51,255 nt of DNA, taken from a virus. Positions 4,385-47,500 of the stretch are shown piece by piece; position 1 is the first letter of the stretch; each line of letters opens with the position of its first letter. The DNA lies in the IMG/VR virus record IMGVR_UViG_3300023179_008629, positions 1 to 51,255 of that record, one strand, 5' to 3'. The notes below the pieces were generated by a model. That model did no database searches and had not been told where the DNA came from. It worked only from the letters and a program-made list of their open reading frames with translations. The translations under genes were made by a program, and so were the position numbers.

Positions 4385-4425
4385 TGTCCACACCCATACC
4401 AAAATTTAAATACGAAAAAACCTGA
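4384..4425 (+). pseudogene. 13-codon mini-ORF, possible gene remnant or leader
   Basis: An ATG overlaps the preceding TAA (TAATG) and reads MSTPIPKFKYEKT before TGA. It sits in the 58-base gap before the sulfotransferase. It may be a decayed gene start or a coupling leader; no function can be assigned. Confidence 0.2.
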
Positions 4426-4442
4426 ATAAAAAAGAGAAACTT

Positions 4443-19196: not shown

Positions 19197-21062
19197 GTGA
19201 GTATCGAACGCAATTATGTGCCTTTGCATGTGCATTCTCATTTCTCGTTGCTCGATGGCCTCGGAAAGCCCGACAAAATAGCTAGCAGATGTGACTCATT
19301 AGGCATCAGGTCTTGTGCATTAACAGATCACGGAAATATAGCTGGAACCGTACAATTTTATCAAAAGCTTAAAGCTAAGAATATTAAACCTATTCTTGGA
19401 TGTGAACTTTATATTTGCGATGCAGACCCAAGCGTCAAAACCAAAGATAATGCTAAGTTAAGTCATTTCCTTGTATTAGCAAAAAATTTACAAGGTTGGA
19501 AAACCCTAATTAAGATAGTATCAGAATCTAATAAGCCAAATTTCTTCTATCATAAACCAAGGTTAAGCTTAGATAAATTAGCATCTATATTAGATGGAAA
19601 TATAATAGGCATATGTGGCCATTTAGGCTCTACTCTAGCGGATATTATCTTAAAAGACCAAACAGGTTCTATAAATAATGGATTGTCTTTTGTTGATAAG
19701 ATGAAAGATATCTTTGGAGAAAATAATTTTTATCTAGAAACCCAACTGTTTGATAAAGAATATTTAAAAGAGCAAATATATTTGACAGATACTATCAGAA
19801 GATTATCTGAAATATCCAAAATAAAAGCGGTTTGCACACCAGATGCTCATTATGTAGATCAGGATGATGCTGTTGACCAAAGAATATTATTGTGCAACAA
19901 TCTTAAAACAACACTCTCCGATATTAATACTAAAATATTAAATGATCAAGATATTCCTATGGAATGTTTTTTTAAGAGTGATAAATACTATATCCTATCT
20001 CCAGAAGAAATGAAATATTTACATAAAGAAGAGGAAATAGAAAATACTCTTTTAGTAGATAGTTTAATAGAAAATTTTGATATCTTATCCCCACCCAGAT
20101 TACCTCAATTTGATTGTCCAAATAATTATGATCCAGACGAGTATTTGAGAGAACTTTGTCGCAACGGCTGGAGAGATAGAATCATGCCTAATATTACAAA
20201 AGAAAATCAACAAATTTATGTTGATAGAATAAAATACGAATTAGAAATTTTGCAAGGAGCAAAGCTAAGTAGTTATTTTCTTATTGTACAAGATATAGTT
20301 AATTATGTAAGAAGTCATAAATGGCTGCCGGGGGTAGGCAGAGGAAGCGCCGCTGGTTGCTTAGTGTCTTATCTAGTGGGCATTACAGATATTGATCCTA
20401 TCAAATATAATTTATTATTTGAAAGATTTTTTAATGCCGCAAGATCATCCTCTATTCCAGATATTGATACCGACGTACCAATAGATAAAAGAGAAAATGT
20501 ATTAGAATATATAAAAAATAAATATGGCAAAGACAAGGTGTCTCAAATGATAACCTTTAATACTATGAAAGGTAGAGGGGCTCTAAAAGACGTTTTAAGG
20601 GTTTATGGTAATATTAGTTTTGAAGAAATGAATACTATCACCAAATTTATTCCTGATGAAGCAAAAATAGCTGACGAATTGCAAGAAATGAAAGAAGATA
20701 CCGGAGAATCTTCTATTATTCGTTGGGCTTTAGAAAATAATGTTGACAAACTAAAAGAATGGTGCTATATTACTGAGGACGGTTTGTTAGCTGGTCCACT
20801 AAGTAAAAGATTCGAACAGGCTATTCGTTTGGAAGGCACAAAATCTAATCAAAGCAAACACGCTGCTGGTGTAATTATAGGAACAGAAGATCTATCATCT
20901 TTATGTCCGATGGTTTATGACAATAAAAATGATCAGCTTATAGCGGGCATGGAAATGAATGATCTAGAAAGTTTGGGGTTGATAAAGTTTGATTTGCTGG
21001 GTATAGCTTTCTTAGATAAAGTAATGTGTGTTTCAGAGTACCTTCAAAATGGAGAAATATAA
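19197..21062 (+). CDS. dnaE: DNA polymerase III alpha subunit, N-terminal part (PHP and palm)
   Basis: 621 aa. Starts at GTG 19197 after AAAGGAAA. The PHP domain is at the N-terminus (HVHSHFSLLDG, LTDHGN). The polymerase palm has GVGRGSAAGCLVSYL and the catalytic aspartates in PDIDTD (D422, D424), and the third in GLIKFDLLG (D599). The gene ends about 20 residues after that motif, where ordinary alpha subunits continue into the fingers. The continuation is encoded at 21931-23544. No intein sequence is visible at this break. The product should be inactive alone and need the second part for DNA binding and synthesis. Confidence 0.9.
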   Translation: MSIERNYVPLHVHSHFSLLDGLGKPDKIASRCDSLGIRSCALTDHGNIAGTVQFYQKLKAKNIKPILGCELYICDADPSVKTKDNAKLSHFLVLAKNLQGWKTLIKIVSESNKPNFFYHKPRLSLDKLASILDGNIIGICGHLGSTLADIILKDQTGSINNGLSFVDKMKDIFGENNFYLETQLFDKEYLKEQIYLTDTIRRLSEISKIKAVCTPDAHYVDQDDAVDQRILLCNNLKTTLSDINTKILNDQDIPMECFFKSDKYYILSPEEMKYLHKEEEIENTLLVDSLIENFDILSPPRLPQFDCPNNYDPDEYLRELCRNGWRDRIMPNITKENQQIYVDRIKYELEILQGAKLSSYFLIVQDIVNYVRSHKWLPGVGRGSAAGCLVSYLVGITDIDPIKYNLLFERFFNAARSSSIPDIDTDVPIDKRENVLEYIKNKYGKDKVSQMITFNTMKGRGALKDVLRVYGNISFEEMNTITKFIPDEAKIADELQEMKEDTGESSIIRWALENNVDKLKEWCYITEDGLLAGPLSKRFEQAIRLEGTKSNQSKHAAGVIIGTEDLSSLCPMVYDNKNDQLIAGMEMNDLESLGLIKFDLLGIAFLDKVMCVSEYLQNGEI

Positions 21063-21245
21063 ATGTTAACAAAAACTTTAGAAGAAGTGGCGGTGGGTGA
21101 AAATTTTGTAGTTAATAATCTAGAATATACTAAAGAACAAGAGGTTAGGGTTAGCTGCTGCAAAAGCATCAACTGTCATCTTGCTAGCGATCCTACCCAA
21201 AGGACTTTTTTCCCAGGAAACACAGTAGTGGAGACCAATGGCTAA
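21063..21245 (+). CDS. Small conserved phage protein, 60 aa
   Basis: Begins on the base after the dnaE part 1 stop and overlaps the exonuclease start by 8 bases. Pattern: LTKTLEEVAVGENFVVNNLEY, then Cys-Cys-Lys-Ser-Ile-Asn-Cys and FFPGNTVVET. This resembles a short beta-barrel family common in phages, of unknown role. Three Cys may bind metal. It is one of two genes separating the polymerase halves. Confidence 0.6.
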   Translation: MLTKTLEEVAVGENFVVNNLEYTKEQEVRVSCCKSINCHLASDPTQRTFFPGNTVVETNG

Positions 21246-21930
21246 TTTACAAAAAATTTGTGTATTTGATTTGGAAACGGACGGGGCTAATCCTGATGTT
21301 TGTAGCCCCGTTCAAATAGCAGCAGTAATAATTGATCCATATAAGTTAGAAATTATTAAAGATTCAGAATTTAATATCAATATAAAACCATCTGCTATAG
21401 AGGACAATCCTGAGTATCTTTATGAGGATAGTGATGTTTTAGATTTTCATGCCAAAGTCAAAGGCTGTGAAAAACATCAAATTTTAAAAGAATGGAAAGA
21501 CTATCAAAAACAAGAACATGGCTGGAAAATGTTTGTTTCTTATTTGGAAAAATATCATATAAGATCAGATAAAAAGTCTTGTTTTACTGCCCCTATAGCA
21601 GCAGGATATAATATCAATAGATTCGATCTTCGTATTATAGAAAAACTAAGCATCAAGTATAACAACCTTAACAAAGAGGGTAAAACCTCTCTGTTTTATC
21701 CAAGAGATGTTATAGATTTAATGAATGTTATATTTTACTGGTTTGAGGGTAATAATGAGCTTAAAAACTATACTCTTGATCATGTAAGAGAATATTTAGG
21801 GTTAGGCAAATTAGGATCTCATGATGCATTAAATGACGTTAGGGCCACAGCGGACATATTAATTAGATTTATGAAATTACACAGAAACTTAGCCGATAAA
21901 GTTAAGTTTAAAAACGCATTTGCTAAATAA
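21238..21930 (+). CDS. DnaQ-like DEDDh 3'-5' exonuclease
   Basis: 230 aa. Exo I is VFDLETDG (D11, E13), Exo II is AAGYNINRFDLRII, and Exo III is SHDALNDVRATADI with the catalytic His and Asp, so all four acidic residues and the general-base His are present. Domain type matches the proofreading epsilon subunit of DNA polymerase III. It lies exactly between the two halves of the alpha subunit, with its stop abutting the start of the second half. This strongly suggests it is the proofreading partner. Confidence 0.88.
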   Translation: MANLQKICVFDLETDGANPDVCSPVQIAAVIIDPYKLEIIKDSEFNINIKPSAIEDNPEYLYEDSDVLDFHAKVKGCEKHQILKEWKDYQKQEHGWKMFVSYLEKYHIRSDKKSCFTAPIAAGYNINRFDLRIIEKLSIKYNNLNKEGKTSLFYPRDVIDLMNVIFYWFEGNNELKNYTLDHVREYLGLGKLGSHDALNDVRATADILIRFMKLHRNLADKVKFKNAFAK

Positions 21931-23544
21931 ATGAATCAATATTATTCTTTTGATTGTGGATGTAAATTTAAGATATTAGGCTACAATTCAAATAATAAGC
22001 CTAGTATAGAGTTTACTGGCAAACTAGAAGACCTTAATTTGGATTGCTCTAGAACATGGGATTTAATTAGTCAAGGAAATACTAAGGGAGTGTTTCAGCT
22101 AGAATCTAGGCTTGGTTCTAGTATGGCTAAAAAATTAAAACCTCAAAATATAGAGCAGCTATCTGCTTTAATCAGTATTATGAGGCCCGGTTCGTTAGAG
22201 GCTATAAGAGACGGTAAGAGCGTTAGTAATCATTATATAGATAAAAAGAACCACTTAGAAAGTGTGGATTATTTTCATCCTTCTTTGGAACCTATATTAA
22301 AATCTACTTATGGAGAAATGATATATCAGGAACAGAGTATGCAAATAGCCCAGGCTGTGGCGGGTTTTAATCTGCAAGAGGCTGATATGTTAAGAAAAGC
22401 TATTGGTAAAAAGAAACCTGAAGAGATGGCAAAAGTTAAGACTAAATTTATACAAGGAGCGAAAGCATTAAATATTATCACTGAGTATGAAGCTGAAACA
22501 ATTTTTAGCTGGATAGAAAAAGCACAAAGATATCAGTTCAATGCTTCTCATAGTATCTCTTATGCGATGAACGCATACTGCTCTGCTTATGCCAAAGCTC
22601 ATTTCTCTCGTTCTTTTTTTGCATCTTATTTAAAGTTTGCTAAAGACAAGATGGATCCACAAAAAGAAACGAAAGAATTGGTCAGAAACGCTACGGAAAT
22701 GGATATTGTCGTTTGTGTGCCCGACTTAAGAAAACTCAATAAGCATTTTATTATAGCAGATGATAAAATTTATTTTGGCCTTACTGATATTAAGGGTGTG
22801 GGATACTCTGTATTTGATAAAATAATAGAACTATCCAAAACTTTAGATCTGCAAACACTATCTTGGTTGCATATTTTAACAAAATTCTTGACAAAAATCA
22901 ACTCAACAGCCGCCAAGGCTCTAATATCTTGTGGTTCTCTCGATTATTGCAATCTTTCTAGAACTCAAATGTTGTTTGAATATGATATAGTATCAGAGTT
23001 AACATCAAGAGAATTAGAGCTTCTAATTGATCAAAATAATTCATTAGGAAATGCATTAAAACAGCTCTTATCTGCACCGAGAATTACAGCAAAAAGAAAA
23101 GCTTCTATAGAACAACTTATTAATTTATACTATAATCCTCCATATTCTTTAAATGATAAAATAGAGTGGTTGTCTGATACCGAAAATTCACTATTAGGTG
23201 TGTCTATAACGTGTTTCAAAATAGACTCTTATGATATTAGTATGACAAATTCTGATTGTAAAAGTTTTAAAAATACACACTTAACTAAAAATATTATTTT
23301 GGCTGGAGAAATTAGCAATATAAATTTTGTAAAAACCAAGAAAGGCAAATATGCCGGATCAGATATGGCATTTTTAACTATTGAAGATCAAATTGCTAGT
23401 TTGGATAGTGTTATAGTTTTTCCTGAACAGTTATCTAAATATAGAAATTATTTATTTGAAGGAAATGTTCTAATTTTTTCTGGCAATAAAAGTAATCAAA
23501 AAGACTCTTTTGTAGTGGAGAAATGCTTTACTCCGCGATCTTGA
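21931..23544 (+). CDS. dnaE: DNA polymerase III alpha subunit, C-terminal part (fingers, beta-binding, OB)
   Basis: 537 aa. After a ~40-residue lead with a CGCKF motif, the sequence joins the standard alpha subunit at DLNLDCSRTWDLISQGNTKGVFQLES, then SIMRPGSLEA, YGEMIYQEQSMQIAQAVAGF and KAQRYQFNASHSISYA, all hallmark fingers motifs. A helix-hairpin-helix-like region (IYFGLTDIKGVGYSVFDKI) and an OB-type region (NIILAGEISNINFVKTKKGK) follow. ATG 21931 comes directly after the exonuclease TAA. Together with 19197-21062 it rebuilds a full alpha subunit; the two chains must associate, since no split intein is visible. Confidence 0.9.
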   Translation: MNQYYSFDCGCKFKILGYNSNNKPSIEFTGKLEDLNLDCSRTWDLISQGNTKGVFQLESRLGSSMAKKLKPQNIEQLSALISIMRPGSLEAIRDGKSVSNHYIDKKNHLESVDYFHPSLEPILKSTYGEMIYQEQSMQIAQAVAGFNLQEADMLRKAIGKKKPEEMAKVKTKFIQGAKALNIITEYEAETIFSWIEKAQRYQFNASHSISYAMNAYCSAYAKAHFSRSFFASYLKFAKDKMDPQKETKELVRNATEMDIVVCVPDLRKLNKHFIIADDKIYFGLTDIKGVGYSVFDKIIELSKTLDLQTLSWLHILTKFLTKINSTAAKALISCGSLDYCNLSRTQMLFEYDIVSELTSRELELLIDQNNSLGNALKQLLSAPRITAKRKASIEQLINLYYNPPYSLNDKIEWLSDTENSLLGVSITCFKIDSYDISMTNSDCKSFKNTHLTKNIILAGEISNINFVKTKKGKYAGSDMAFLTIEDQIASLDSVIVFPEQLSKYRNYLFEGNVLIFSGNKSNQKDSFVVEKCFTPRS

Positions 23545-24035: not shown

Positions 24036-24040
24036 TATGA
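24005..24040 (+). CDS. Possible 11-codon leader peptide across the terminator
   Basis: ATG 24005 reads MGVKYPPFSLL and stops at 24038-24040, overlapping the next ATG (24037) as ATGA. AAAGGA (23989-23994) lies ten bases upstream. The mini-ORF covers the entire terminator hairpin, so its translation could open the hairpin and hand ribosomes to the glycosyltransferase gene, which otherwise lacks a ribosome site. This is a proposal; nothing shows that it is expressed. Confidence 0.35.
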   Translation: MGVKYPPFSLL

Positions 24041-26898
24041 CAAAATCTAAGCTCAAAATCTTGATGTGTTCAGAAGCTAGTTTTATAAATTCTGGCTTCG
24101 GAAAATATGCTTATGAGTTTTTGTCTAGATTACACAAGACAGGAAAATATGACATAGCAGAGTTTGCTTCTTATGGTTTTGTAAATGATCCAAGAGATAA
24201 GAATATCGACTGGACATATTATGCCAATGCCGTAAGAGAGAACGATCCTAGATATCAAGAATACATGTCAAGAACCGACAACCAATTTGGGCGTTGGAGA
24301 TTTGAAAAGGTTTTATTAGACTTTAAGCCCGATGTTGTTTGTGACGTAAGAGATTATTGGATGACTCACTATCAGCCAATTTCTCCATTAAGACCATACT
24401 TTCACCATGTCTTAATGCCCACTGTCGATTCTGCTCCTCAACAAGAGGAGTGGATAGACACCTTCTTATCTGCTGATGCTGTCTTTACATATAGTGATTG
24501 GGGAGCAGAAGTATTAAAAAATCAAAGTAATAATAAAATTAATTATATAGACACCACAACTCCCGGTGTTAATTTGGATATTTTTTATATGAAAGATAGT
24601 AAAGATTTAAGATCAAAATTTAATATCGATCAGGATGCTTTCGTTATTGGTTCTGTGATGAGAAACCAGAAAAGAAAACTAATTCCTGAACTATTCTCTA
24701 GCTTAAAGCAGCTACTATCTCACTTATCTCAACAAAACAATCCTCAAAAAGTATATTTGTATATGCATACAACATATCCTGATATGGGTTGGGATATTCC
24801 AGAATTACTAAATCAATACGAAGTAGCGAATCATGTTTTATTCACCTATTTATGTAAACAATGTGGTAATATTGAAGGTTCTACATTTTGTGGTACTCAA
24901 AAAATTTGTTCCAAATGTCTAAATAAATCATCGTCTTTTCCATCTGTTTCTCAAGGAGTATCAGAAGATCAATTAAGCGATATATATAATTTGTTTGATT
25001 TATACGTGCAATATGCGATTTGTTTAGGGAAAGATGAGCAAATAAAAATAAAGCGAGATGAAAAAGCTCAATGGATTCCGATATCCCAGGTACAGGTAGG
25101 AGACGAAGCATGGACCCACAAGAATAGGTGGAGAAAAGTATCTCATGTATGGAAAAACTTGGCTAAAAGTCATAATAAAAAAATCTTAGAATTATCTGTA
25201 CACGGAGACTATGAAACATTAACAGCAACAGAAAACCATGAATTTCCAGCATATACATCTAATGAGCTCAAAATTAAACATAGATCCATAAGAGAAAATA
25301 TAGGATATTATCTATATAACAAGAAAGAACTACCAAATTATGGAAAATATGAGCTAAAAGACTTAAAAGAGGGAGATATGCTTCTTTATCCTATAGACGA
25401 TACTGTTATAGATATTAACTCCATCGATATTGCTCAAGAAATTGATTGTTCGGACTATCTTGTATTGGACTCTTTTATAGAGACATCTAAAACATATAGT
25501 TATCCCAGATTTATTGATATTAACAATAGTTTTTGTAAATTTATAGGATTGTTTGCTGCCGATGGATCTTGGGAATCTCGTCCCGGATGCAAAAATATTA
25601 AAATCACATCTCATATAAAAGAAACCGAGAATCAAATTCTTGCGTTAGAATGTATGACTCAAATAGGATCAAACAATAACGCCGTTTCTGATAGGATATA
25701 CAAAGACAGGCTAGGTATAGATGCTGTACTAGGTTCCAAACTACATGCTCAATTATTTGCTAAATGGTTTTCTAAACATGAACACAAACAACTACCAGAC
25801 TGGTGTTTATATCTACCGTTAGAAAAACAAAAAGAAATTTTGATCGGCATGTTCATGGGAGATGGCCACTATTGCAAAGTAAAAAATTATTCTCAAATTA
25901 GTACAATTTCTAAACCATTAGCGGATCAAATAAAACATATCCTAAGAAGATTAAGAATCCCGTTTTCTGTATCAAAAATTAATAGAACCAAACATAAAAC
26001 ACAAGATCAGAAAAACAGGAAAGATTGCTATTCTTTTGAAATCTATGGATGTAATATTAAAAATGGAGATATTACAAATAAAAGAAACGGATCATATAAT
26101 GTATATTATAAAAATAATCATATAATACAAATAAAGAGTATTGTCGAATCAGACTACAATGATGATGTGTGGTGCTTAACCGTAGACAATGACCATACAA
26201 TGACTACAAAAATAGGCGCCACTTTTCAGTGCGAGGGTTTAGGAATGCCCCAAGTAGAAGCAGCAGCTTGTGGTATTCCAGTAGCTACAGTTAATTATAG
26301 CGCTATGATAGATATTATTAATAAATTACAAGCTTTTCCTATTAGGGTGCAAACTTATTTTAAAGAACTAGAAACGAAAGCCATAAGAGTCTATCCTGAT
26401 AATAATGATCTAAGAAGAATAATACTTGAACAGATAAATAAACCATTATCTATAAGAAATCAAGAAAGATATCGAACACGACAATTAACAGAACAACATT
26501 ATGATTGGAATATTATTATAAGAAAGTGGGAGAAATACTTTGATAATCTAGAATTTAGAGCCGATTGGAATAAACCACTACCATCACTTACTAAGGCAGA
26601 TTTACCATCTAAAAAAACAAATACTGATAATTTGTCTTGTTTTTTAAATCTATGTAATAATCATCTTAAAAATGCAGATTTGGTATCTTCTTCAAGATTT
26701 TTAACAATGCTACAAAATGCTGACTATGGATTTATGAGCAACACCCCAACACAAATAGCAGGAGCATCCATAGAGAATTTATATAGCTATGTTAATACTA
26801 TGATAGATAATAATAATAAATCAGAAGAGGCTAGAAAAAATAATATTACTTTTGAAGAAGACTTTATACAATACGCACACTTAAAAAAGAACACATGA
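24037..26898 (+). CDS. GT4-type glycosyltransferase interrupted by an intein
   Basis: 953 aa precursor. N-extein, residues 1-328: GT-B fold with EASFINSGFGKYAYEF, SDWGAEVLKN and PGVNLDIFYMKD. Residues 273-294 form an unusual zinc-ribbon insertion (C273, C276, C291, C294). C-extein, residues 732-953, begins with CEGLGMPQVEAAACGIPVAT, containing the EX7E motif (E733...E741). Joining the exteins gives a continuous YVQYAI-CEGLGMPQ, normal for the family. The spliced enzyme would be 550 aa. It likely transfers a nucleotide-activated sugar; acceptor unknown. It heads the second glycan cluster and overlaps the next gene by ATGA. Confidence 0.85.
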   Translation: MTKSKLKILMCSEASFINSGFGKYAYEFLSRLHKTGKYDIAEFASYGFVNDPRDKNIDWTYYANAVRENDPRYQEYMSRTDNQFGRWRFEKVLLDFKPDVVCDVRDYWMTHYQPISPLRPYFHHVLMPTVDSAPQQEEWIDTFLSADAVFTYSDWGAEVLKNQSNNKINYIDTTTPGVNLDIFYMKDSKDLRSKFNIDQDAFVIGSVMRNQKRKLIPELFSSLKQLLSHLSQQNNPQKVYLYMHTTYPDMGWDIPELLNQYEVANHVLFTYLCKQCGNIEGSTFCGTQKICSKCLNKSSSFPSVSQGVSEDQLSDIYNLFDLYVQYAICLGKDEQIKIKRDEKAQWIPISQVQVGDEAWTHKNRWRKVSHVWKNLAKSHNKKILELSVHGDYETLTATENHEFPAYTSNELKIKHRSIRENIGYYLYNKKELPNYGKYELKDLKEGDMLLYPIDDTVIDINSIDIAQEIDCSDYLVLDSFIETSKTYSYPRFIDINNSFCKFIGLFAADGSWESRPGCKNIKITSHIKETENQILALECMTQIGSNNNAVSDRIYKDRLGIDAVLGSKLHAQLFAKWFSKHEHKQLPDWCLYLPLEKQKEILIGMFMGDGHYCKVKNYSQISTISKPLADQIKHILRRLRIPFSVSKINRTKHKTQDQKNRKDCYSFEIYGCNIKNGDITNKRNGSYNVYYKNNHIIQIKSIVESDYNDDVWCLTVDNDHTMTTKIGATFQCEGLGMPQVEAAACGIPVATVNYSAMIDIINKLQAFPIRVQTYFKELETKAIRVYPDNNDLRRIILEQINKPLSIRNQERYRTRQLTEQHYDWNIIIRKWEKYFDNLEFRADWNKPLPSLTKADLPSKKTNTDNLSCFLNLCNNHLKNADLVSSSRFLTMLQNADYGFMSNTPTQIAGASIENLYSYVNTMIDNNNKSEEARKNNITFEEDFIQYAHLKKNT
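25021..26229 (+). other. LAGLIDADG intein (403 aa) inside the glycosyltransferase
   Basis: Starts at Cys329 (CLGKDEQIKI, block A). Block B is LTATENHEFPAY (TxxH). Two LAGLIDADG helices are visible: FIGLFAADGSW and ILIGMFMGDGHY, so a homing endonuclease is present and looks intact. Block F is VWCLTVDNDHTMTT. The last intein residue is Gln731, preceded by Phe rather than the usual His, and the +1 residue is Cys732. Insertion is immediately before the EX7E catalytic motif, a conserved position that favours homing. C-terminal Gln occurs in a minority of inteins, and a missing penultimate His can slow the last cleavage step. Splicing is therefore expected but not certain. Confidence 0.9.
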
Positions 26899-33760: not shown

Positions 33761-36700
33761 TTAAAAAATTGGAGTAAGATCGTCAGTTGGTGGGGTTGTA
33801 GTTGGATTATCAAAAATCCCTGTGGGTTTTATAAAATACTCATAAGGAATCATCTCAAAATCATATAAGCTACGTAATTGAGGGGTCTTGTTTTCTATAT
33901 TGTCAACACTACCAAAAAATGCTCTAAAAATCATTTCATTCAGCAATTGAAAAAATTCTGGTGTTTTTGCCTCTAATAAAGAACCACCGGCTTGTGGTGC
34001 TGCCAATGGATCTTTTTGATAGCATTTCCATTGATATAAATTATTAATTAAGCTTTCTGTTCGACCAATACCCCAAGCGTCAAGAGGATCAAGAGGAGGT
34101 CTATTCTGTGGTCTATAGCTCATATTCTCACCATATCTTAATATGGTGCCTATAGCATCAATACCTCTTAAAGCCCTCGGAGCTTTACGAAATTGAACCT
34201 TTAATGTTTGAGTATCATCAAGATTAAAAATATTATATACTCTAGTGGGAAAAGCATTACGAGAATTATTCTCTAAACCGTCTAATAGTCCATTTTTTAA
34301 AATATCTCCAGAATAATCATTTTTTAAGATATTTTCTTCTAACATGGTTGAGACTATATCAGAATCAGATAATCCGGCCTCTCTGCCATTTTTTATATAT
34401 ATTTCTATAGTGTCTAATGCTATATCATAAGTTTCTATGGCTGTTACCAAAAATTCTTGATTTTCTCCCGTAGAATTATTTGTTGATTTTTCGCTATTGA
34501 TTCTAAATCTTCGTTCTATAGTTTGATTTTTCCACGATAATACTCTAGCACCAAAGCTTTCTTTTTGTTCGTTAATAAAATCTTCTTTAAAAGTATATGT
34601 TGTACCAGTGCTATCTGCTTTAATTATCATTTTATCATTTTCTAATGTATCCACAACGCTCCAATCTGGACATACATTATTAAAACTGATCAGTTGAGAA
34701 CCACCAGTGGTAAAACTAGGATTAGTATTTTGACAAACATATTTTACAGACTTAAGGATTTTGGGCCTCATTTCTTCCGCGATACTAATAGATTGTTTGG
34801 GATCAATATTAATCCAATAGTAATTATTTGATAAATTTTCATATGTTATATTTAGAGATTTATCAGCATTGGTAACTATATTAACTTTTTGATCGGGAAT
34901 AATTCCTCCGTTGTCGGTATGATATTTTTGAGCCTCCGGATCCAAAATATATTCATAAACTATTTTAAATATCTCTTCTTTTTGAAAAATAATAGAATTA
35001 TCTATAAGCTTAATAGATTCTATATTATTAAATTCTACTATTCCCTCTATAAATACATTGTTAGTAAAATCTTGATTAGATTTATATATTTTTACTTTTT
35101 TGATGGTCTGTTTGTCTAATAATTTTAAAATATCATTTTTTTCTGAATATAATTTTTGTAATTTATTGTATGTATTATATTTATAACATGTCAGCACTGG
35201 GAAGACCCTTGAACAGTCCCCCAAGTCTTCAGATAAGCTATCATAATGTTGTTGAATATAAAAAATAGAATCTGAAGCTAAAATAGTATTAGTATTGAGC
35301 CCTTCCCCTATTAAACTATCTAAATTAACAATATTGTCTTGATTAATGACGGCCAATCGATCTGTAAGAGTTTTTAATTCATCTATTGTAATTCTTGTGA
35401 CTGTGTCTTTATATGAATAAATATTTTCTATAGTAACAGAAGCTATAGCATTACGATATAATTGCTTAATAGAATTATTATCTTTAACTTTCAAATAAAT
35501 CATATTATATCTATGATCTTTAAAGTATGTTTTATTGTTTTTTATAGAAGTATTGATATTATCTAATAGATCTCTTATAGCTTCTCTGTTATCTGTAGCA
35601 TTACTATCACTAAAAGTATGATCTATAATATGATATATATTACTATTAACGATATTATTATTGGAAACATCATAATATACTGGATATGATTCTAATTTAT
35701 TATTAATTACAATAGGCACACCAGTAGGCAAGCCAGTTGGAGCCATAGGTTGTTTGTGTTGTCCAGACGGCAGTGTTATAGCTAGTTCATTATAGTAATA
35801 TTTATCATTATTAAAATTATTTAATTGATTATATATAGATTCTATATGATTAATCTGTACTTTTCTAGATAATATATTTTTATCTTTAACAGAGGATCCG
35901 TCTCCATATGATCCTAAACTATTGGTAGAAAAAGTTAAATCTGGTATGGTGTCATTTGGTGGTTGATCACTAACTAAACCAAATAATGAAACTGGAGATG
36001 TTTGACTTATATCTAATGTAGAGTTTTCAGATCCGCAGACAATAACAACATCTTCTGGTAATAATAAAGAAGAACAAGAATTTAATATTTCTTTAGATTT
36101 ATTTAAAACTAAAACCGTAATATATTTAGAGTCTTTATATATTAAAGCCTTAGACATAACTATAGCTGATAGATTGTTACAGTCTAGAGTTATTGAGTCT
36201 CCGATGCTGATTAAGTAATATGGAATAGTGTGATCTATAATAATTAATGTTTGATCAGGCTTATTTAGATATTGAAAAATATTTTCACTATGTATAATTT
36301 TATTAGCAAATACTAGCTCGTCCACGCCCATAAAATCAAAATTATTATAGACATTATCATCAATATTCTGATAGAGGGCTTTATCTGTTTCATCAGCGTC
36401 TTCTGGTGTGGCCTTGTTAATAATATATTGAATAAATAATTCATCTATAATATCACTACGATTAGATACGATATTAAAATTAAATTTAAATAATTTATTA
36501 TCCGATTTAATTAATGAATATTTTTTAAGTGGTAAAGCTGGGGTATTATTTAATTTAAAAATACTAGCCTCGACTTTATACCAAAATAAGCCATCCTTAC
36601 TAATATTAAGCAAAATTTTATCTGAATTACCAAAAGGATAACCATCATATTCTATATCAAATGTTTCTCTTTGAGCTAATTCCAAAAGAGGAACCTGTCT

Positions 36701-39700
36701 TGATTGTTTAAAATAATCGAATATCATTTGAAATCCTAGAGCATATGTTGGTCCTAAGCCTCCCACTAAAGCCCCAACCAAAGTACCAGTCATTCCGCCA
36801 ACAGCTGTCCCAGCTAAAATAAAAATTAAAGCCTCTGTAGGAAATCTTGGACTATTAATTAGTGCTCCTTTACCTATTAATTCATTATCAGCGTATTCAC
36901 ATGCATTATAATTTTGAAAAAAGGTTGTAGGAGCATTCATATTAACTAAAGGTAATAAAAATTTACTATCTTTTAGATCAGCAATAAAGCTATACCCTGG
37001 ATATTTTGGATCTTTGCCATATTCTAAACAACTCAATGCATCAGTTCCGCCGTAATTTGCTAAAGAATTTAGCTGACTTGTTACTGGCTTTTTAACATCT
37101 TCTGTATGTAATATCAATTCCCAACTACATAAATTATTAAATAAATTAGCACTAGTAATAGAGTTTTCTATGCTAGCTATATTAGTATATAATTCATTAT
37201 TAACTATCGTATCCATAGGAAACATTTCATCTTGTTCTTCTAATACTGCTATGCACAAAGTAAATGTGGTAGCAGCGTCATAAGGCCCCCTATTAGGAGG
37301 ACATGGATTTCCAAATTTGTCCTCTTCTGGGTCTACTCCTGCGAATAATCTTTTATTAGCAAATTTATTAAAAGTATTATTATTAATATTTAAATTATTA
37401 TTTTTGTTAATATTACTAAAATTACTATTATGATAAGTATCATAATCTATACTATGTCTAGATGCATTTACTTTCATATTATTATTAATAATATATTGCT
37501 CAGGATCGATAATACCAGTACTAAATATATTTTGATCAAATAATACATTATGCTTATTAGCAGTATCGGAAAAAATAACACTAAAATTATATTCTTTATT
37601 CTGAACAGTTTCTTGATTCAATAGGTGTAAAATTAATTTTTCACCAATATTATCCACAGAATTAGAGTCTGTTAAATTTTGTAAATATTGCTTAATGTCG
37701 GTATTAGACACAGGAATACCAGCAGAAACCAAAAAATCATTGCGAACATCTTTAAAACCCTTATATGTATCATTAGAAATAAACTGGTCTATAAAAATGT
37801 TAGAACTAGTAATTTGAGCAGGTGCAAATTCTTTTTCCGTCGGTTTTTGTTTATTGCGAGATATGTTTCGCTTTTCTCTACTAAGATATCCTTTGCCTAT
37901 AAAATCAACCTCCAACCATATAACTAAATTCTTAGTATTAACATAATTTAAAAAATTTAATTTAACTTCTATATCTTTAATTGTTAAATCATTAACTCTT
38001 GGATTTCTTAACTTTAAACCATTATTATTTTCTATATATTCTATTAGATTAAAATTTTGATTATTAGGATCAGGATTCAAAAATTGTAAATCATCATCTG
38101 AAAAAGATATTTTGCCTGGTGGACCAACAACATTAAAACCATAAATAAATCTATTATTAATCTCATTAATACTAAAATTAAATTCATCATTAGTTGGTGA
38201 GCCTTCAGACAATAAATTTCTTTCTGATGTTTTTGGATTTCCGCCGTTTAGTATTCTATATCCATGATGATAATCATTAGCATAACGATCAGATAATTGG
38301 TCAGATAGCTCCTTTTCTATTTGATTTGTCCAATCATGCTGTTGTTTATTGGCTGCTTTTTTTGCTCTCGCTACGGCTTCTGGTAAGCCCTGATCGCATA
38401 CCGCAGGCTCAGGCTTCCATCTTATAATTGGATTAATCTCAAGCTCTATAGTGCTACGAAAAATATTAGATGATATCTCAGCACTATTTGTATAATTGCT
38501 TAAGTTTAGTATTCCTGGTCCAGAAAAACTAAAGCTTTGTCTAGCACCGGGATTGAATTTTAAAACACTGCTAAGATTACGACTATCATTAACCACCCAC
38601 CCACTTTCTGGAATGAAACATCCTTTATTAAATTTTAGGTATTCTGTTGGCATAACATGCTGTTGATAGCAAAACTTATAGTTTCTTACAGCATCATCCA
38701 GGCTTACAAAGTCATCTTTATAGTCTAGTTTATATCCTGTTGCATACGGTAAGATCTCGGGGATTTGAGCAACTAAACCGTTATTTTCTGCCAGTCTTTT
38801 GGGTTTTTTTAAAGACTCTAAATTATTAATAGATAATTTATCTAAAATTTTATTACCATATCCCCCATATGATCTAATTGGAGGAGAGATATCGGTACTT
38901 ATAATAGGATAATAGTATTCTCTAGTTTCGCTCGGATAAAAAATATTAGCATCTGGTAAATACTTTTGTAGAGTAAAACTATCTGGATTTTTGTTGCTTC
39001 TGGTGAAATTTGGCCTTTTGTTACCACCAATAAAACTTTTAAATTTAGGTTTATAAAGACTATAACATTGAGAACATTGGACAGTATCATTCCGTATATT
39101 ACGCAATATAATTCTATCTAGCTTTATAATGGTATTATTAGTTTTATAATTAATAGATAATGTGCTATTAGTTAATTTTGGTATTATACCAGTTGACCCA
39201 TCTTTATCAAACATAAATAAATAGTTATTATTTTCATTTAATTTTTCTATTGGTCTGCTGTTTGCTGCTACTTTTTCCACATAATAATTAGTGCGTATTG
39301 GTGCAAATAGACCATCTCTATGGACTGCTACAGAATCCAAGCCCGCGATAAAAACCTGTAATTGGTCTTTGTTTAATGGTATTTTAACATTTTCTGTTCT
39401 ATATTTATTAAGATTGATATTTTGTATATTAACCCTATTGGTAGTAATATTATTATTGTTTATATTATCTATTATTTCTTCTGCGACTGCTTCATCGTTC
39501 GGTAATAACTCTCCAGGTAATGGAGCATCGTTATTGATTGTAAAAGACATAGACGAAAAATTAAATAGATTATCAGAAGCATCTGTTGTATATGTAGCAA
39601 AATTAGGATTGTCTATTATTTCTTGTTCTGATTGTATTTTTTCTCTGCCATCAACTATAAAAATAGTTTTAATCTTGGTGAAAGATCCGTATGGCCCCGA

Positions 39701-41521
39701 AACAACACATTTAAGAACATATTTGCCGGTACTAGACGGAACCAATAATACCTCATTGCTATATGCTATATTATAATTTTTATTGGTTTGTGTTTTATTT
39801 AGATCAACAAATCTACAATCAGGACCAGAAACTTTAGTCCAAACACAAACAAACTCGCTGTCTATTATTTCTTGAGCCTGATTTGGATATTGGTTGTTAG
39901 TATATTTAGTTAATAAATCAGTATTTACTACCTTAAACTTAGGACAATACCTTAACCAATCAGTCATGTTATTTTGAATATTTCTAGGTCCCCAATAAAA
40001 CACATTGGTATTAGGATGATAATCAAAAACAGCAGGAATATCAGAATTACCTTTCTTAAAATACTCATCAACATTATTATTTTTTTCCATTAATATATTA
40101 ATATTAGAAGAATCTTTTAAATATGGTTTAACACTATCATATAGAGATACTGTCTCGGTTGTTTTGTTTTTATGTTTCAATAAAATACTAGAAATTGATT
40201 CCCCAATGCTAGTTTCTACAGATAAATTTCCTATGGACAAAGTTTTATTATTTTTTACAATTTTATCCTTTAAAGTTTTATCAATTAATGTCTCACCAAT
40301 TTCTTCTACTATAACGCTATCTCCATAAGTCAGTGTTGGTTTATAGCTAATAGTAGCATCTCCGGAAAGCTGTAACTTCGCACCATATTTATTAAATAAT
40401 TTAAGAAATAATTGATCATTATTATTAATAATATTACTGTTATTATTTATTTCATATTTGCTATACTCTTGACTAATAACTTCTAAAACTTTTTTTAGCT
40501 CGATAATATCATTAGATATACTGTTTATAGTTTTTGTCAGATAATTATTGATAGCGGTTTTAATAGACTCTGTAGGCTTTGCCAATAAGATTGCAAAAAA
40601 TTCGCTACTAAAAGGACTGGTACTCAAAGAGTGAGCTAATTTTTTATATTGTCTTAATTTATGTGTTGATCTAGTATCTGTGACTTTAATTAGTTTTTCA
40701 TTAGCTGTTAAGCTATTATAAAATATATTATAATACTTATATAGAGATCCTGATATATAAGACCTAGAAGCTATTCCTTGTATACTATTTTGTTTTTTTT
40801 CTGATTGATTAGTAAAATATAATAACTGATCACCATCAGGAATCCATACTTTAGTTTCTTCTGATCCGTATAAAATAAACTCTGGATCTTTATTATTATT
40901 TTCTTTAATTAAATCAGAAATTTTTATATCACTATCATCTTCTGTATACCGAAAAGATACGGTCGCATCAATCATAAAAGACGATTGAAGGGCTTTTGTT
41001 GGATCAATAGGTCTGATTGTTTCATTATCTAGTTTGAAATAAATTTTATCATTATATTGAATTTTAGAGTAGTTTGGAAAAAAGTCAATTTTACCAGTTA
41101 TCTTGGGAGTTTTTCTTATCCAATACATTAAACCAGCTTCAACACTATGTTCTGATCTACTTCTATTAAGTATCCAATCAATAACCATCAATTCTCCCGG
41201 AGCATCCCAATTTTTAAAGAATGGATTAAAAACTATAAAATTTTCTATGCCTATTCTACCACTAGAAAAAGATGAATCGCCAGTAACTGATCCATAATGA
41301 CTAATTATTTTATTAGATACTAAATTATCATCTTGATAAAAAACTGGTATCCAAGTGTCTTTATTGTCTGAAAATGAGAATATATCTTTTTTTAAAGTGT
41401 ATCCCTCTGTGATTTTATTTTCCCAAATTATTTGATTATCTTTTAATGAATAAGATAATAAATCTTCGCTAAAAGACTTTGTGGTTATATCACAATTTTT
41501 AGAAAAATCTAATAAACTCAT
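33761..41521 (-). CDS. Giant virion-type structural protein, 2586 aa
   Basis: No homology can be assigned by eye. Visible parts: an N-terminal Asp/Ser/Asn-rich beta region; a CVWTKVSGPDCRF...GKYVLKCVVSGPYGSFTKIKT segment (about 560-620) like a PKD or Ig-type beta sandwich; a CSQCY pair (about 820); a hydrophobic Gly-rich segment (LAGTAVGGMTGTLVGALVGG, about residue 1570) that could cross a membrane; and a long C-terminal beta-rich region with PTTTPPTDDLTP at the end. Size, lack of catalytic motifs and position suggest a tail, baseplate or injection protein. One base separates it from the 2139-aa gene. Composition is Asn/Ile-rich like its neighbours. Confidence 0.6.
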   Translation of the reverse strand: MSLLDFSKNCDITTKSFSEDLLSYSLKDNQIIWENKITEGYTLKKDIFSFSDNKDTWIPVFYQDDNLVSNKIISHYGSVTGDSSFSSGRIGIENFIVFNPFFKNWDAPGELMVIDWILNRSRSEHSVEAGLMYWIRKTPKITGKIDFFPNYSKIQYNDKIYFKLDNETIRPIDPTKALQSSFMIDATVSFRYTEDDSDIKISDLIKENNNKDPEFILYGSEETKVWIPDGDQLLYFTNQSEKKQNSIQGIASRSYISGSLYKYYNIFYNSLTANEKLIKVTDTRSTHKLRQYKKLAHSLSTSPFSSEFFAILLAKPTESIKTAINNYLTKTINSISNDIIELKKVLEVISQEYSKYEINNNSNIINNNDQLFLKLFNKYGAKLQLSGDATISYKPTLTYGDSVIVEEIGETLIDKTLKDKIVKNNKTLSIGNLSVETSIGESISSILLKHKNKTTETVSLYDSVKPYLKDSSNINILMEKNNNVDEYFKKGNSDIPAVFDYHPNTNVFYWGPRNIQNNMTDWLRYCPKFKVVNTDLLTKYTNNQYPNQAQEIIDSEFVCVWTKVSGPDCRFVDLNKTQTNKNYNIAYSNEVLLVPSSTGKYVLKCVVSGPYGSFTKIKTIFIVDGREKIQSEQEIIDNPNFATYTTDASDNLFNFSSMSFTINNDAPLPGELLPNDEAVAEEIIDNINNNNITTNRVNIQNINLNKYRTENVKIPLNKDQLQVFIAGLDSVAVHRDGLFAPIRTNYYVEKVAANSRPIEKLNENNNYLFMFDKDGSTGIIPKLTNSTLSINYKTNNTIIKLDRIILRNIRNDTVQCSQCYSLYKPKFKSFIGGNKRPNFTRSNKNPDSFTLQKYLPDANIFYPSETREYYYPIISTDISPPIRSYGGYGNKILDKLSINNLESLKKPKRLAENNGLVAQIPEILPYATGYKLDYKDDFVSLDDAVRNYKFCYQQHVMPTEYLKFNKGCFIPESGWVVNDSRNLSSVLKFNPGARQSFSFSGPGILNLSNYTNSAEISSNIFRSTIELEINPIIRWKPEPAVCDQGLPEAVARAKKAANKQQHDWTNQIEKELSDQLSDRYANDYHHGYRILNGGNPKTSERNLLSEGSPTNDEFNFSINEINNRFIYGFNVVGPPGKISFSDDDLQFLNPDPNNQNFNLIEYIENNNGLKLRNPRVNDLTIKDIEVKLNFLNYVNTKNLVIWLEVDFIGKGYLSREKRNISRNKQKPTEKEFAPAQITSSNIFIDQFISNDTYKGFKDVRNDFLVSAGIPVSNTDIKQYLQNLTDSNSVDNIGEKLILHLLNQETVQNKEYNFSVIFSDTANKHNVLFDQNIFSTGIIDPEQYIINNNMKVNASRHSIDYDTYHNSNFSNINKNNNLNINNNTFNKFANKRLFAGVDPEEDKFGNPCPPNRGPYDAATTFTLCIAVLEEQDEMFPMDTIVNNELYTNIASIENSITSANLFNNLCSWELILHTEDVKKPVTSQLNSLANYGGTDALSCLEYGKDPKYPGYSFIADLKDSKFLLPLVNMNAPTTFFQNYNACEYADNELIGKGALINSPRFPTEALIFILAGTAVGGMTGTLVGALVGGLGPTYALGFQMIFDYFKQSRQVPLLELAQRETFDIEYDGYPFGNSDKILLNISKDGLFWYKVEASIFKLNNTPALPLKKYSLIKSDNKLFKFNFNIVSNRSDIIDELFIQYIINKATPEDADETDKALYQNIDDNVYNNFDFMGVDELVFANKIIHSENIFQYLNKPDQTLIIIDHTIPYYLISIGDSITLDCNNLSAIVMSKALIYKDSKYITVLVLNKSKEILNSCSSLLLPEDVVIVCGSENSTLDISQTSPVSLFGLVSDQPPNDTIPDLTFSTNSLGSYGDGSSVKDKNILSRKVQINHIESIYNQLNNFNNDKYYYNELAITLPSGQHKQPMAPTGLPTGVPIVINNKLESYPVYYDVSNNNIVNSNIYHIIDHTFSDSNATDNREAIRDLLDNINTSIKNNKTYFKDHRYNMIYLKVKDNNSIKQLYRNAIASVTIENIYSYKDTVTRITIDELKTLTDRLAVINQDNIVNLDSLIGEGLNTNTILASDSIFYIQQHYDSLSEDLGDCSRVFPVLTCYKYNTYNKLQKLYSEKNDILKLLDKQTIKKVKIYKSNQDFTNNVFIEGIVEFNNIESIKLIDNSIIFQKEEIFKIVYEYILDPEAQKYHTDNGGIIPDQKVNIVTNADKSLNITYENLSNNYYWINIDPKQSISIAEEMRPKILKSVKYVCQNTNPSFTTGGSQLISFNNVCPDWSVVDTLENDKMIIKADSTGTTYTFKEDFINEQKESFGARVLSWKNQTIERRFRINSEKSTNNSTGENQEFLVTAIETYDIALDTIEIYIKNGREAGLSDSDIVSTMLEENILKNDYSGDILKNGLLDGLENNSRNAFPTRVYNIFNLDDTQTLKVQFRKAPRALRGIDAIGTILRYGENMSYRPQNRPPLDPLDAWGIGRTESLINNLYQWKCYQKDPLAAPQAGGSLLEAKTPEFFQLLNEMIFRAFFGSVDNIENKTPQLRSLYDFEMIPYEYFIKPTGIFDNPTTTPPTDDLTPIF

Positions 41522-41522
41522 T

Positions 41523-44500
41523 TTATCCTGTGCTAACTAATGTCCATTTTCCATTAATATAATTAAATAGTCCTTTATTGCCAGTTTTTAAATTTAATGG
41601 ATTGACAAAATTGGTAGTAAATATTGGTAAAACTCCTGCTCTTCGACCCTGGGTATAACTCATTTCTATTTTAGCTTCTAGTCCATTGATTGTGCCCAAA
41701 GCAGTTAAAATTGGTTTACTGATTGGCTCATAAAAACCGTTATCTCTGTTGTATCTGCATAATAACTTAGCTCCTCGTGGAGCGGTATAGCCTGCCTTGT
41801 CTATTACATATACTAATCGTCTATAATTATTCTGTAAAGGCTCTTTACTATATTCTATATCGTCTATAAAAGCTCGTGCCGGAACTGTGCTCTCAAAATT
41901 ATCTTCTCTTATCATATCTTGCTCTAATGTTAAATAAACCATTTTATATGGACATTTATTTTCATTTCTATTAGCTAAAAATTCAGTTAATGTAGATAAG
42001 TCATTTTTATCACTAATTATAAATGGTGGCAAAACTTCTTCTTTGCAAGCTCCTGAGCCGCTAGCATCCCATACTTTTCTTTGATGGTCCCATCTTAAAT
42101 CTATAGGACCAACGGGCCAAAGATCTGGTCTTTCTCCCCATTTTTTATGAAAAAATTCTGATTTTTTATTAGATTTTTTAACATATTTAGTGCCATTCCA
42201 AGTATAATTAACAGGAATAATATCTCCGAGTCTTTCGATGGTGACTCCATCTCCGTCAACAATAGGCTCATACAACCCTGATTTATTTAAATCATTTAAA
42301 CCGCTTGTTAGAATAAATCTTTTAGGTCTATTTTTATCATCAATCTCAGCAGCTTCATCATTAGCATTAGGAACAGGATAACCATCCGTATCAAATCCCC
42401 AACTATGTAGCATCAACGGCCCTCTTAAACCAAAAAATCTTTGATTCATCAACATATCCACATTATCACTATTTTTTTTATTTAAATCGATCTCATTATA
42501 ATCAAATTCACCACTATTTAATACTAAATTTGCATGCAAAACAAAGCTTTGATCTCCAACTGGTAATTTTTCTCCTCTAGCTAAAGCAACTATAGAATGT
42601 TTAGGTAATAAACCTGTGGTGTGTGGATTGGTAAACTCTCCGTTATTTACTATAATAGGATTTAAACTGTAAAGATTGATATTATCAGGCACAGATGCTT
42701 GTTTTATCGGTTTATTATCATTACTTAATTTGCTCTTAGAACAAACAGGACAGGGTAATCTAATCTCTATTCTAGGCCTATCGGTTCTACTATAGTCTAT
42801 GCTATCAACTATTATATATCTTTTATTAGAACATCTGGGACAATAAAGAATAATATCCTTTCCAATTTTATCTTTATAAGCTAAAGAACTAATACTATAA
42901 GTACTGTTCAATCTAGTGGGATAAAAAGATATAGGAGATAACAACCCGTCTAAGCTCATAGCTGCTTTGCTATCATAGTCATTTAAAAGCTCAGCTCCCA
43001 CTTCGCTACCAGGAAATATAGCAGCATAATGGTGATTTCTTATAGTCTCATTAAACCCTGATACTGTTATTGTATTTTCTGGTATAGGGGCAAAACCCGC
43101 CGCTTGCCCGATAATTAGTTCAACAGGACTATTTCCAAATAATTGTGTAGAGTGTTTAGCAACACTATATGGCTCTCTGTTTGTTTGAGATTTTTCTTTG
43201 GCTGTTAAAAAGTTTTTAAGTTGAGTATTAGATATATTATTATTTTTTCCAAATAATATTTTATTAAATTTTAATAATTGAGAGTTCTGTTTTCTAATAT
43301 TATCACTAAATTGTTTATTAAATAATCCTGTTTTTGGATTATAGGTTTGAAAACTATAAGTAGTTCTTATTCCATTGTCAGATGTTTGTATGCTAATATT
43401 ACTGATAACAGCACTAGAACCATAGGTGTTTTGTTCTAATATTTTTGTAGTATATTGTGCTGTATTTTTATTAGGTAAATCAATGAACATTATATTTGTA
43501 TTTTTAATTTGATAATAGTTATTATCATAAATCATATAGTTGTTATCATTTCGATACAAATTAAGATTATTAATATGCTCATAAGTAAAAACTCCACCAA
43601 TACTAAAAATTGGTGGTCCAACTATAGAAACTCTTCCATTTTCTATTGTGTTCTGATAATTAACATCAACATTCATTTCATAGGAAATAACCTTATCCAA
43701 AAAACTCATACCTCCATAATTCCAAGGAACATAATCAGCATTTTGCTCTATCTTTATATTGCCTATCAAATTATCTGCTAAATTAGAGTTCATCACCAGT
43801 CCTGGATAATTTGTCCATGGGCCATAAACGGCTCTATTCATTTTGAGTGGAGCAGCAACAAAAAACGGGGTGGCCATTTTTGGCTCAACCATATAATTTT
43901 GAGGAGAGGTATTGGTAGACACTCCCAAAGGCACCAATCTTGTTGGATCTATGGTATATACATATTGTAATAAATATCTAAGATACTGAGCTTCTTTGGA
44001 GTCTATATTTGCATCTATAATTTTTTTTCCAGATCTATCTCTTTGAAAGATAAAATTATTATTCTCATTATTTAAATTAGCGAAGATACAAAAATCCTCC
44101 ATTGCTATATTGCTAATAACAGTTAAATTTGGATCGCTAAGATAGCTATAACTAGAACTGGCTAATTTTACTGGTGTCGCATCTACTACTATTCTAGGAT
44201 CAGATAAATTTATCGGATTAAGAAATATAATTTTATCAGAATTGGATTTGGTATATAATTTGGATGAATTTACTTTTCCACCAAAAGCATCAGTATTTTT
44301 TATAGCTTTCTCCAACAATACATATGAACCAACATCAAGATCAGCAATATCAAGAGATGGTATAGAAATTTTATTAGGATCTGAACAATCAAAAGAATCT
44401 CTATATGCTGTTCTTAGTTGTGTAATCAATGAAAATAGATTTGTTAGATCTTCGAGTTCTTTTTGTTCATCTGGATATTCCTGCTCCCATGGTTTCCAAA

Positions 44501-47500
44501 AACCCCCATATGGTTCTCTTTTTTTGTTCCATTCACTTTTTTCTATCTGCAATTGTTTTAATCTTTCACGACTAGTAGATATTATTCTAATTTTTTCTTT
44601 TTCTAGTTTTTTAAGTTGTTTATTATATTCTGTTAATTTATTATTATAAAATGATAAAAAATTATTATAGCTCATAGCTTTATTACCACTATCCATAGCT
44701 TCTTTTCCGAATATTTCGGCAATATCCGGATCGTTTTCTCCAAAAGCATCTAGTACCAGTTTGCCTTGGTAGAGCTTATTATTTCCTTTTTTATTATTTA
44801 TTTGTGTTCGAATATAATTAATAATAGTATTTGTTCCATTTATTAATTTTTTAATATCCTCTATATCTTTGTCAATTTCAGTTGTGGTTGGTATTGATAT
44901 TACCGTTATTTTTTCTTGTAGTTTAGCAATTTGTTTTTCATATGATAGTTCGCACCAAAATTTTGTAACATAATCTATATTATTGCTACTATTATATCCT
45001 ACTATTGTTGGAATGAGTCCGTCATCATTTCTTAAAACATGCCAATTATTATCCCCACAAACTATACTATCATCTATATAATTTCCATACTCTTCCCATG
45101 CTCCTTCTGCGATTTCATAATCATAGAAAATTTCAGTTCCTCCTTGATATATAGAAATATTTCCTATTTTTGATGGCAACTGTATATTAGCATATTGAGT
45201 ATCTTTATAAGAATATAACGATGGTGCTTTAATAGCATATTTTTTCCCATAATATTTATCTCCAATGCTTTTAATAAAACTAAATAATATTTGTAAATCT
45301 TTTATAAAATTATGATTTAACCATAAATCCCAATTAATATCCATCTTAGTTCTTATGGATGACGAAGGATCGCCAGGGATTCCATCTTGATTAATATTTA
45401 CTCGACTTGAGCCAATCGATCCTCTGGTTAGTCCTGTTTCATTGGTAGGTGTGCTGGTATTAGATCTGGGAGATGTTAAAAATATTCCTTTATCTTTATA
45501 AGCATTAACTAACATGGTAAAAAGATCTGGTTTGCTATATATTGATTTTCCTAAACAATATGTTAAATAACTATCAAAATTAGAGCATCTAAACTCTGTT
45601 TCTTTTATTGTAAATCCCGGATTACGATAATTTAATGTTCTTGTTGGGTCTATACCTTGTGATGCAGCACCTCCGAAATCTGTGGGTGGTGTCTGTTGTG
45701 TTTGATTAGATGTTATGGATCCTTGTTTTCTGGAAAGCCCTCCATTGATATCTGATGAAGAAGAAGTGCTAAAAACACTAGGATCATATAGTGTCATTAA
45801 TTCTCCTATAGATAATAATGGAAGCTCATTCATATCAAAAAGTACAGTTATCTGATTTGTCCAAGTATCTATCAACACTGGTCTGTGTAGTCTAAATTCA
45901 TTAGTATTATCCCCAATAGGGGCATTATTTTCAGTTTTAAAACCAAAATATGGACTAATAACATCATCAAATAATGAAATATATCGTTCATAAACAGGCT
46001 CTGTAATAATTACAGTGCTGCCATCTGGATTGGTTATTTCCAAGAATCTTGTGCCTGTTCTTATTGCCTCATTATTAAATATTAATGTATCTTCATAATT
46101 ACCACGAACTATATAGTCCTTTGATCCCTGATCTTCTCTATCAATCTCTATATCGCCCCAGTCACTAACTGCTGTACTAAATCTAATATCTTTATCTATA
46201 TCGTCTCTTAAAAAAAGAGAACTTTCATCTGGATGTATAAAATCAGATAAAATTTTATTTCTTGTAGAGGATAATGATGGATTACGAATTTTATTGGTTT
46301 TGTTCCTGGTCTTAGTAGAATCCAAATTCATAAATTCTTTAGTAATAGTATTATAAATATAATTTGTTTGATTATATGATAATCTATAGTTTTTTACTTG
46401 ATATAATCTTTGTTGATTTCCTCCAAATACTAATTTACGAGTAAAATTGTTATTTTTCTCTTGACCAAAACTACTGTTTTCTATCTGAAAACCTTTATTC
46501 TCTAAAGATGCCACAACACTAGGGATTTGATAAAGAGGATTATAATTTTTGCGATCAACGGTAACTATTTTGATTATAAAATCTGTGTTATTATCATCTG
46601 ATATAGGAATAACAACGGACAAAAAGTCAACTCCAGTGTCATCAGAGAGTTGTCTTATAAAAGAAGATATGCTGATATTGGGATTGCCTTGAATTCTATA
46701 ATTATCAGGAGGTCTTGGTATACTACTAAGATCTAACTTAAAACTATTATAATTTTGAGCAGGATTGTTGTTTCTTGTGGGGGAGCTGTATGTTATAACG
46801 CCAAAAGATTTTAAACCAGAAACAATTGATTGATCCCTAGCATTTGCTATATTTTTTGTTAATATTCTTCCGAATGGAGAAAACGCTTTATCTAATAGTC
46901 TAAAACCAAAATTATCGCTTGAGGTTAACGTTTGAATAGCGTCTATAATATCATTAGCTCTTAATCCTTCGCTATTTAATTTAGAACCTCCGAAACCATT
47001 ATCTCCCATACTCTCTAAAAATCCATACACATTAAATACATTTGGAAGGTTGCCTAGTTTAATTTTTTCATCAAATTTCTGAGATGATCCAATAGCAATA
47101 GATGGCAAAGGAAAATTTACTGGACCCCCTATTTGGTTAGCTGATAAATTAGTTACGTTGGCTATACCTGCGTTTCCTAATGAATCCAATAAATTTTGTA
47201 AATATGCTGACTGTATATTAAAAATAGCACCATTAAAAGACTGTAAAATCATATGACAATTATCTAATAACTCATCAAAACTCTCTATGGTCACACTATA
47301 GGTGATCCCTCCTGGTCTATTGTTTCTTGTCCAGTCTTTGACCAATCCTATAAACTCAAAATTATCAAATTTAAAATAAACAGGAGTATTAATAATATCA
47401 TATATATAAAGATTAGAATTATAGATGTCACGACTTAAAGATGGTTCATAAATACCATTAGGATTGATTCTGGTGCCTGTAGCAAAAAAACCTGGATCTT

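Follow-up and report, generated by a model that had tools for sequence, protein, structure and literature searches.

According to a review (PMC4031507), the third step of protein splicing is assisted by two histidines, His F:13 and the penultimate His G:6, and about 5% of functional inteins carry a residue other than His at G:6. The same review reports that the Gln-ended Pol II inteins of Pab (Pyrococcus abyssi) and Mma are slow, and that the Gln-ended RNR intein of Chilo iridescent virus (CIV) splices better with Gln than with Asn. In the Pab and Pho (P. horikoshii) Pol II inteins the block-F His adjoins the terminal Gln, at a distance of 3.4 A in Pho Pol II. Phage inteins often lack His G:6, putting the His back slowed one of them, and in mycobacteriophage inteins without His G:6 the block-F His has been suggested to compensate. 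The review also takes inteins that lack His G:6 or Asn G:7 to stand, in all probability, at various stages following a first catalytic loss (PMC4031507). Class 3 inteins carry a WCT triplet at positions B:12, F:4 and G:5 and usually have no class 1 nucleophile at position 1. Gln-ended and His-less inteins are each already known separately; in the accessible literature we found no tested example in which a Gln end is combined with the absence of the penultimate His.

The window analyzed here corresponds to a complete IMG/VR virus record, 51,255 bases long. An open reading frame of 953 codons without an internal stop (24037-26898, plus strand) carries an intein in frame, as residues 329-731 of its product; the exteins joined without it make a protein of 550 aa. 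The features of the locus are listed below, with the numbering of intein blocks following PMC4031507, and relatives are denoted by L numbers throughout.

24037..25020, plus strand: N-extein of the GT4 glycosyltransferase (GT), 328 aa, conserved in intein-free relatives
25021..26229, plus strand: class 1 LAGLIDADG intein, 403 aa, from Pfam, alignment and structure model; absent from intein-free alleles
25021..25023, plus strand: Cys1, the N-terminal nucleophile (block A), invariant in 15 alleles
25228..25239, plus strand: block B TxxH (TENH), assisting step 1, found by alignment
25540..25566, plus strand: first LAGLIDADG motif, FIGLFAADG, with catalytic Asp (Pfam, alignment)
25840..25866, plus strand: second LAGLIDADG motif, LIGMFMGDG, with catalytic Asp (Pfam, alignment)
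26164..26211, plus strand: block F (DVWCLTVDNDHTMTTK), from alignment; Cys F:4 at 26173-26175, block-F His at 26194-26196
26224..26229, plus strand: Phe402-Gln403 (codons TTT CAG), an atypical block G end where His-Asn is usual; the same in L002, L004 and L028
26230..26259, plus strand: Cys+1, then the EX7E catalytic motif EGLGMPQVE; the EX7E Glu and Cys+1 are invariant in intein-free alleles
26230..26898, plus strand: C-extein of the GT4 glycosyltransferase including the stop codon, from sequence and intein-free relatives
24577..26500 (limits approximate), plus strand: tract around the intein in which synonymous sites agree with L002 more than outside (co-conversion), from third-base identity

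The intein begins with CLGKDEQI and ends with GATFQ, after which CEGLGMPQVE follows. Two Pfam models score above their cut-offs, LAGLIDADG_3 (E 7.5e-10) and Hom_end (4.5e-5), and both LAGLIDADG motifs retain the acidic residues of a homing endonuclease, while Intein_splicing remains under its cut-off (24.4 vs 35.8 bits). The AlphaFold model (pLDDT 88, pTM 0.89) matches the whole inteins TliVMA, PI-SceI, PI-PkoII and PI-PfuI over their length (E 5e-17 to 2e-13) and the gp41-1 intein at 2.4 A; a phmmer search of the PDB with the intein alone gave no match, and a profile of 14 alleles found inteins there. The Pfam domains, both motifs and the matches to whole inteins agree with a preliminary description of this locus, which had proposed a full-length LAGLIDADG intein of 403 aa. 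The C-terminal residue of the intein, Gln403, is one of the known substitutes (Gln/Asp) for the cyclizing Asn; the penultimate His, which is usual but not obligatory, is replaced by Phe402, and the block-F His is present.

The host proved to be a GT4 enzyme, as had been suggested: the joined extein matches the PHROG 2170 glycosyltransferase family (E 1e-20), and the model of the intein-free relative L007 (pLDDT 84, pTM 0.82) shows a GT-B fold of the GT4 type, with a transferase of Paramecium bursaria chlorella virus NY2A as the best Foldseek match (3oy2 among the matches), followed by MshA, BshA and WaaG. The extein contains the EX7E motif of GT4 enzymes, and both its Glu residues (E343 and E351 in alignment A4) as well as Cys+1 are invariant across 15 intein-free proteins. 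A weak match of the GT profile to PC4 in the PDB, around RDYWM (E 7e-4), was judged to be due to chance. The gene is surrounded by genes of phage replication (an RNR, a RecA/UvsX-like protein, DnaB helicase, a primase, Pol III alpha as two pieces, an exonuclease and SSB), and its position after Pol III, exonuclease and SSB is kept in relatives with and without the intein. The Pol III alpha subunit is split into two ORFs (19197-23544), one for the PHP/catalytic part and one for the finger/HhH part, which are separated by the gene of an RNase_T-type exonuclease; this order is kept in L002, L004, L007, L009 and L013. Elsewhere in the window, positions 1997-5219 encode a sulfotransferase-like protein of 258 aa and what may be another glycosyltransferase, of 795 aa, which suggests further glycan-modifying genes in this phage, and two giant neighboring ORFs on the minus strand (33761-47942; 2586 and 2139 aa) have no Pfam or PHROG match. 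A search of 84,980 prokaryote genomes confirmed no relatives, and among INPHARED phages there were only remote GT matches (Synechococcus phage S-EIVl and a Pontimonas phage) and remote inteins.

The junction was established from IMG/VR relatives, of which more than 140 were fetched, most of them intein-free. Nine of the 14 loci in the first set lack the insert and read QY[AS]I/CEGFGMPQVEA (the slash marks the insertion point); in a larger set (349 relatives matched, 80 kept), 68 of 74 examined read QY[AS]I/CEG[FL]G flush, with no insert, and a pattern scan for N/CEGFG added about 75 intein-free genes with QYAN/CEGFG. Because intein-free relatives join seamlessly at the same point, the boundaries of the intein are fixed, and because both EX7E Glu residues are invariant in the intein-free alignment, the intein is placed directly before this motif, with only Cys+1 between. 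An in-frame insert that is absent from seamlessly joined homologues is the behavior of a class 1 intein. A junction shifted by one residue (LGK...QC/E) would yield the same product but leave a nucleophile at neither end, and was rejected, as were matches to Q/CEG in L106 and L108, which lie in short chance frames. The position before EX7E, claimed in the preliminary description, is thereby upheld; the search for intein-free alleles in related phages that it advised returned many, joined at the exact point, and since these exist, the absence of any joined extein homologue, which it named together with absent splicing as fatal to the idea, is excluded.

Besides the window, 14 complete alleles of the intein were found at this site in IMG/VR, and a further copy (L239) is interrupted by the end of its contig. 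Four of the 15 end in Phe-Gln (window, L002/L003, L004/L006 and L028), one in Tyr-Gln (L022-L024), one in Pro-Gln (L249), one in Asn-Asn (L005), and eight in His-Asn (L031, L175, L135, L230, L231, L232, L233 and L234). The Phe-Gln end described earlier is no sequencing slip, as it recurs in these entries and is always encoded with CAG, the codon used for Gln in all Gln alleles. A nucleophile is found at both ends of every allele: Cys1 in 15 of 15, and at +1 Cys in 13 and Ser in two (L231 and L233). In L233, around position 3015, the sequence after Ser+1 reads GALEMPLVEA, so that the first EX7E Glu is seemingly lost, near the contig end. On the intein tree, rooted by midpoint, the seven alleles without the penultimate His, the window included, form one clade (support 95/95). 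The Asn-Asn allele of L005 is nested inside this clade, and a clade of Gln alleles only is rejected (AU p 1.5e-4); therefore L005 most simply reverted from Gln to Asn within the Gln clade, and we regard such a reversal as likely. His-Asn, the common state, is inferred to be ancestral. Among the Gln alleles mutual intein identity ranges from 44 to 90% and the penultimate residue is Phe, Tyr or Pro, while all six possess the block-F His, which in L005 is Asn; this link could reflect shared descent, since one clade and one reversal stand behind it. Six of the seven no-His alleles have Cys F:4, which is missing from all eight His-Asn alleles, and six of the seven have Thr G:5.

Other insertions were encountered in the same gene family. 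L022 (1829-5827) and L230 (4054-8061) each carry two inteins per GT gene, one at the site described here and one before C[DG]IRD[FW]WM (CVPPET...VHN/C); L142 has an intein before CVMPTVDARP, and L192, of the same GT family, before CDFAERSPFRP. These extra positions bring the insertion points in this GT to four or more. L025 and L258 carry other inteins, with His-Asn ends, in proteins that resemble a DNA methyltransferase and a protease, respectively.

The distribution of the intein follows homing rather than phage lineage. On a tree of 48 exteins, hosts of the no-His clade are scattered over six places (six changes) among intein-free genes, and a tree that forces them together is rejected (AU p 2e-44). 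The separation of the window with L002, of L028 and of L022 involves well-supported neighbors, while long branches make some placements (L004 and L005) unsure. The window intein is 66% identical to that of L004 and 62% to that of L005, compared with 36% identity of the exteins in both cases. Relative to L002, which has the allele nearest to that of the window, synonymous differences per site amount to 0.22 for the intein, against 0.45 for the GT exteins (intein vs exteins, Fisher p 9e-9) and 0.57-0.70 for five upstream flanking genes. Third-base identity to L002 rises from about 0.6-0.7 upstream to 0.82-0.95 near 24577, stays at 0.72-0.95, mostly above 0.8, across the intein as far as about 26450, and is 0.5-0.6 from 26557; against the intein-free L032 there is no comparable rise around the intein site. 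Such a bounded tract around the insert is the mark expected of recent homing, in which the intein would have been copied with its flanks. Purifying selection is evident throughout, with dN/dS of 0.07 and 0.16 in the exteins, 0.08-0.13 in the Hint parts and 0.24 in the endonuclease. The spread of an intein whose extein stays under purifying selection almost certainly means that it splices, and from selection and mobility we conclude that the window intein very probably still splices.

On this sequence evidence, the insert in the GT4 enzyme is very likely a mobile class 1 intein that is still active. Cys1 and Cys+1 would perform the two acyl transfers, and the branched intermediate would be resolved by cyclization of the C-terminal Gln to a glutarimide, in place of the succinimide formed from Asn, with the block-F His probably taking over the role of the missing penultimate His (here Phe). 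The LAGLIDADG domain is predicted to cut intein-free GT genes at the EX7E codons, whereupon the intein would be copied into the cut gene together with its flanks. We infer Gln cyclization with the block-F His from the reviewed data on Gln ends and His, the geometry of Pho Pol II and the His-less phage inteins; the slowness of Gln ends in two characterized inteins (PMC4031507) counts against the reading of an active intein as a whole. Improbable, by comparison, is a scenario in which a single loss of His-Asn was rescued by coupled changes (Gln and the block-F His, later Cys F:4 and Thr G:5) that now constitute a step-3 chemistry of their own, which could be redox-sensitive through the three active-site Cys residues, so that GT activation would depend on the state of the cell.

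The idea put forward in the preliminary description, that splicing at the atypical end may be slow or conditional and that sugar transfer could thereby be switched, appears unlikely, also in the form that the phage delays the enzyme in this way. The insert does split the enzyme exactly at its active site, slow splicing is known from the Pol II inteins of Pab and Mma with their Gln ends, Pab being locked by a Cys1/Cys+1 disulfide, and Cys1, Cys F:4 and Cys+1 of the window intein could form a similar lock. However, most relatives in the same phage group are intein-free and therefore no switch is needed; the spread of the intein follows homing; the end has been kept at 44-90% intein identity in a clade that has moved several times, once recently; and nothing in the window sequence suggests a regulator or signal. 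Nor does the sequence predict a splicing rate, since Gln ends can be slow or, as in CIV RNR, better than Asn, and a restored His can slow a His-less phage intein. Decay, with poor splicing and with Gln and Phe as plain damage, would account for the loss of two normally conserved catalytic residues, but it is very improbable given that Gln is kept in six alleles of a clade found at six places on the extein tree, that dN/dS is 0.08-0.24 in the intein and 0.07-0.16 in the exteins, and that a recent copying event is visible between the window and L002. A mixture of class 1 and class 3 features is reportedly known in some inteins from work of Tori and Perler in 2011. That Cys F:4 and Thr G:5, two thirds of the WCT triplet and typical of the no-His alleles, take up the N-extein first in a partly class 3-like reaction is the least probable reading, as Cys1 never varies, alleles with Cys F:4 have Phe, Leu or Met but never Trp at B:12 (the window has Phe-Cys-Thr and Cys1, which led us to reject a class 3 assignment), Cys ranks second in frequency at F:4 among ordinary inteins (PMC4031507), and L249 is Gln-ended without Cys F:4.

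In the open-access literature we found no description of a Gln end combined with the lack of the penultimate His, of such an allelic series at one site, or of a GT4 host; the Phe-Gln end itself is possibly new, to judge from those published intein ends that the survey covered. The 15 complete alleles at one site lead from His-Asn by way of Pro-Gln, Tyr-Gln and Phe-Gln to an Asn-Asn end in which Asn has probably returned, and the evolutionary path can therefore be tested allele by allele. They indicate that a doubly atypical end is no bar to the spread of an intein, and they add phage glycosyltransferases, with their several insertion points, to the known intein hosts.

Among described systems, the window intein resembles the Pyrococcus abyssi and P. 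horikoshii Pol II inteins in the C-terminal Gln before Cys+1 and in the block-F His near that Gln, but the latter are mini-inteins without an endonuclease, possess the penultimate His, reside in an archaeal DNA polymerase and have their splicing improved by Asn. The RNR (RIR1) intein of Chilo iridescent virus is likewise viral and Gln-ended, and splices better with Gln, but it occupies another host protein; the comparison covers its Gln end. Mycobacteriophage class 1 inteins (e.g. Bethlehem RDF, with penultimate Gly) share the phage origin, the endonuclease and the lack of His G:6; they differ in their exteins and have been described with terminal Asn cyclization. The best structural matches to the whole model, the VMA inteins PI-SceI and TliVMA, have the same Hint and LAGLIDADG domains, but only 12-14% sequence identity and a V-ATPase as the host.
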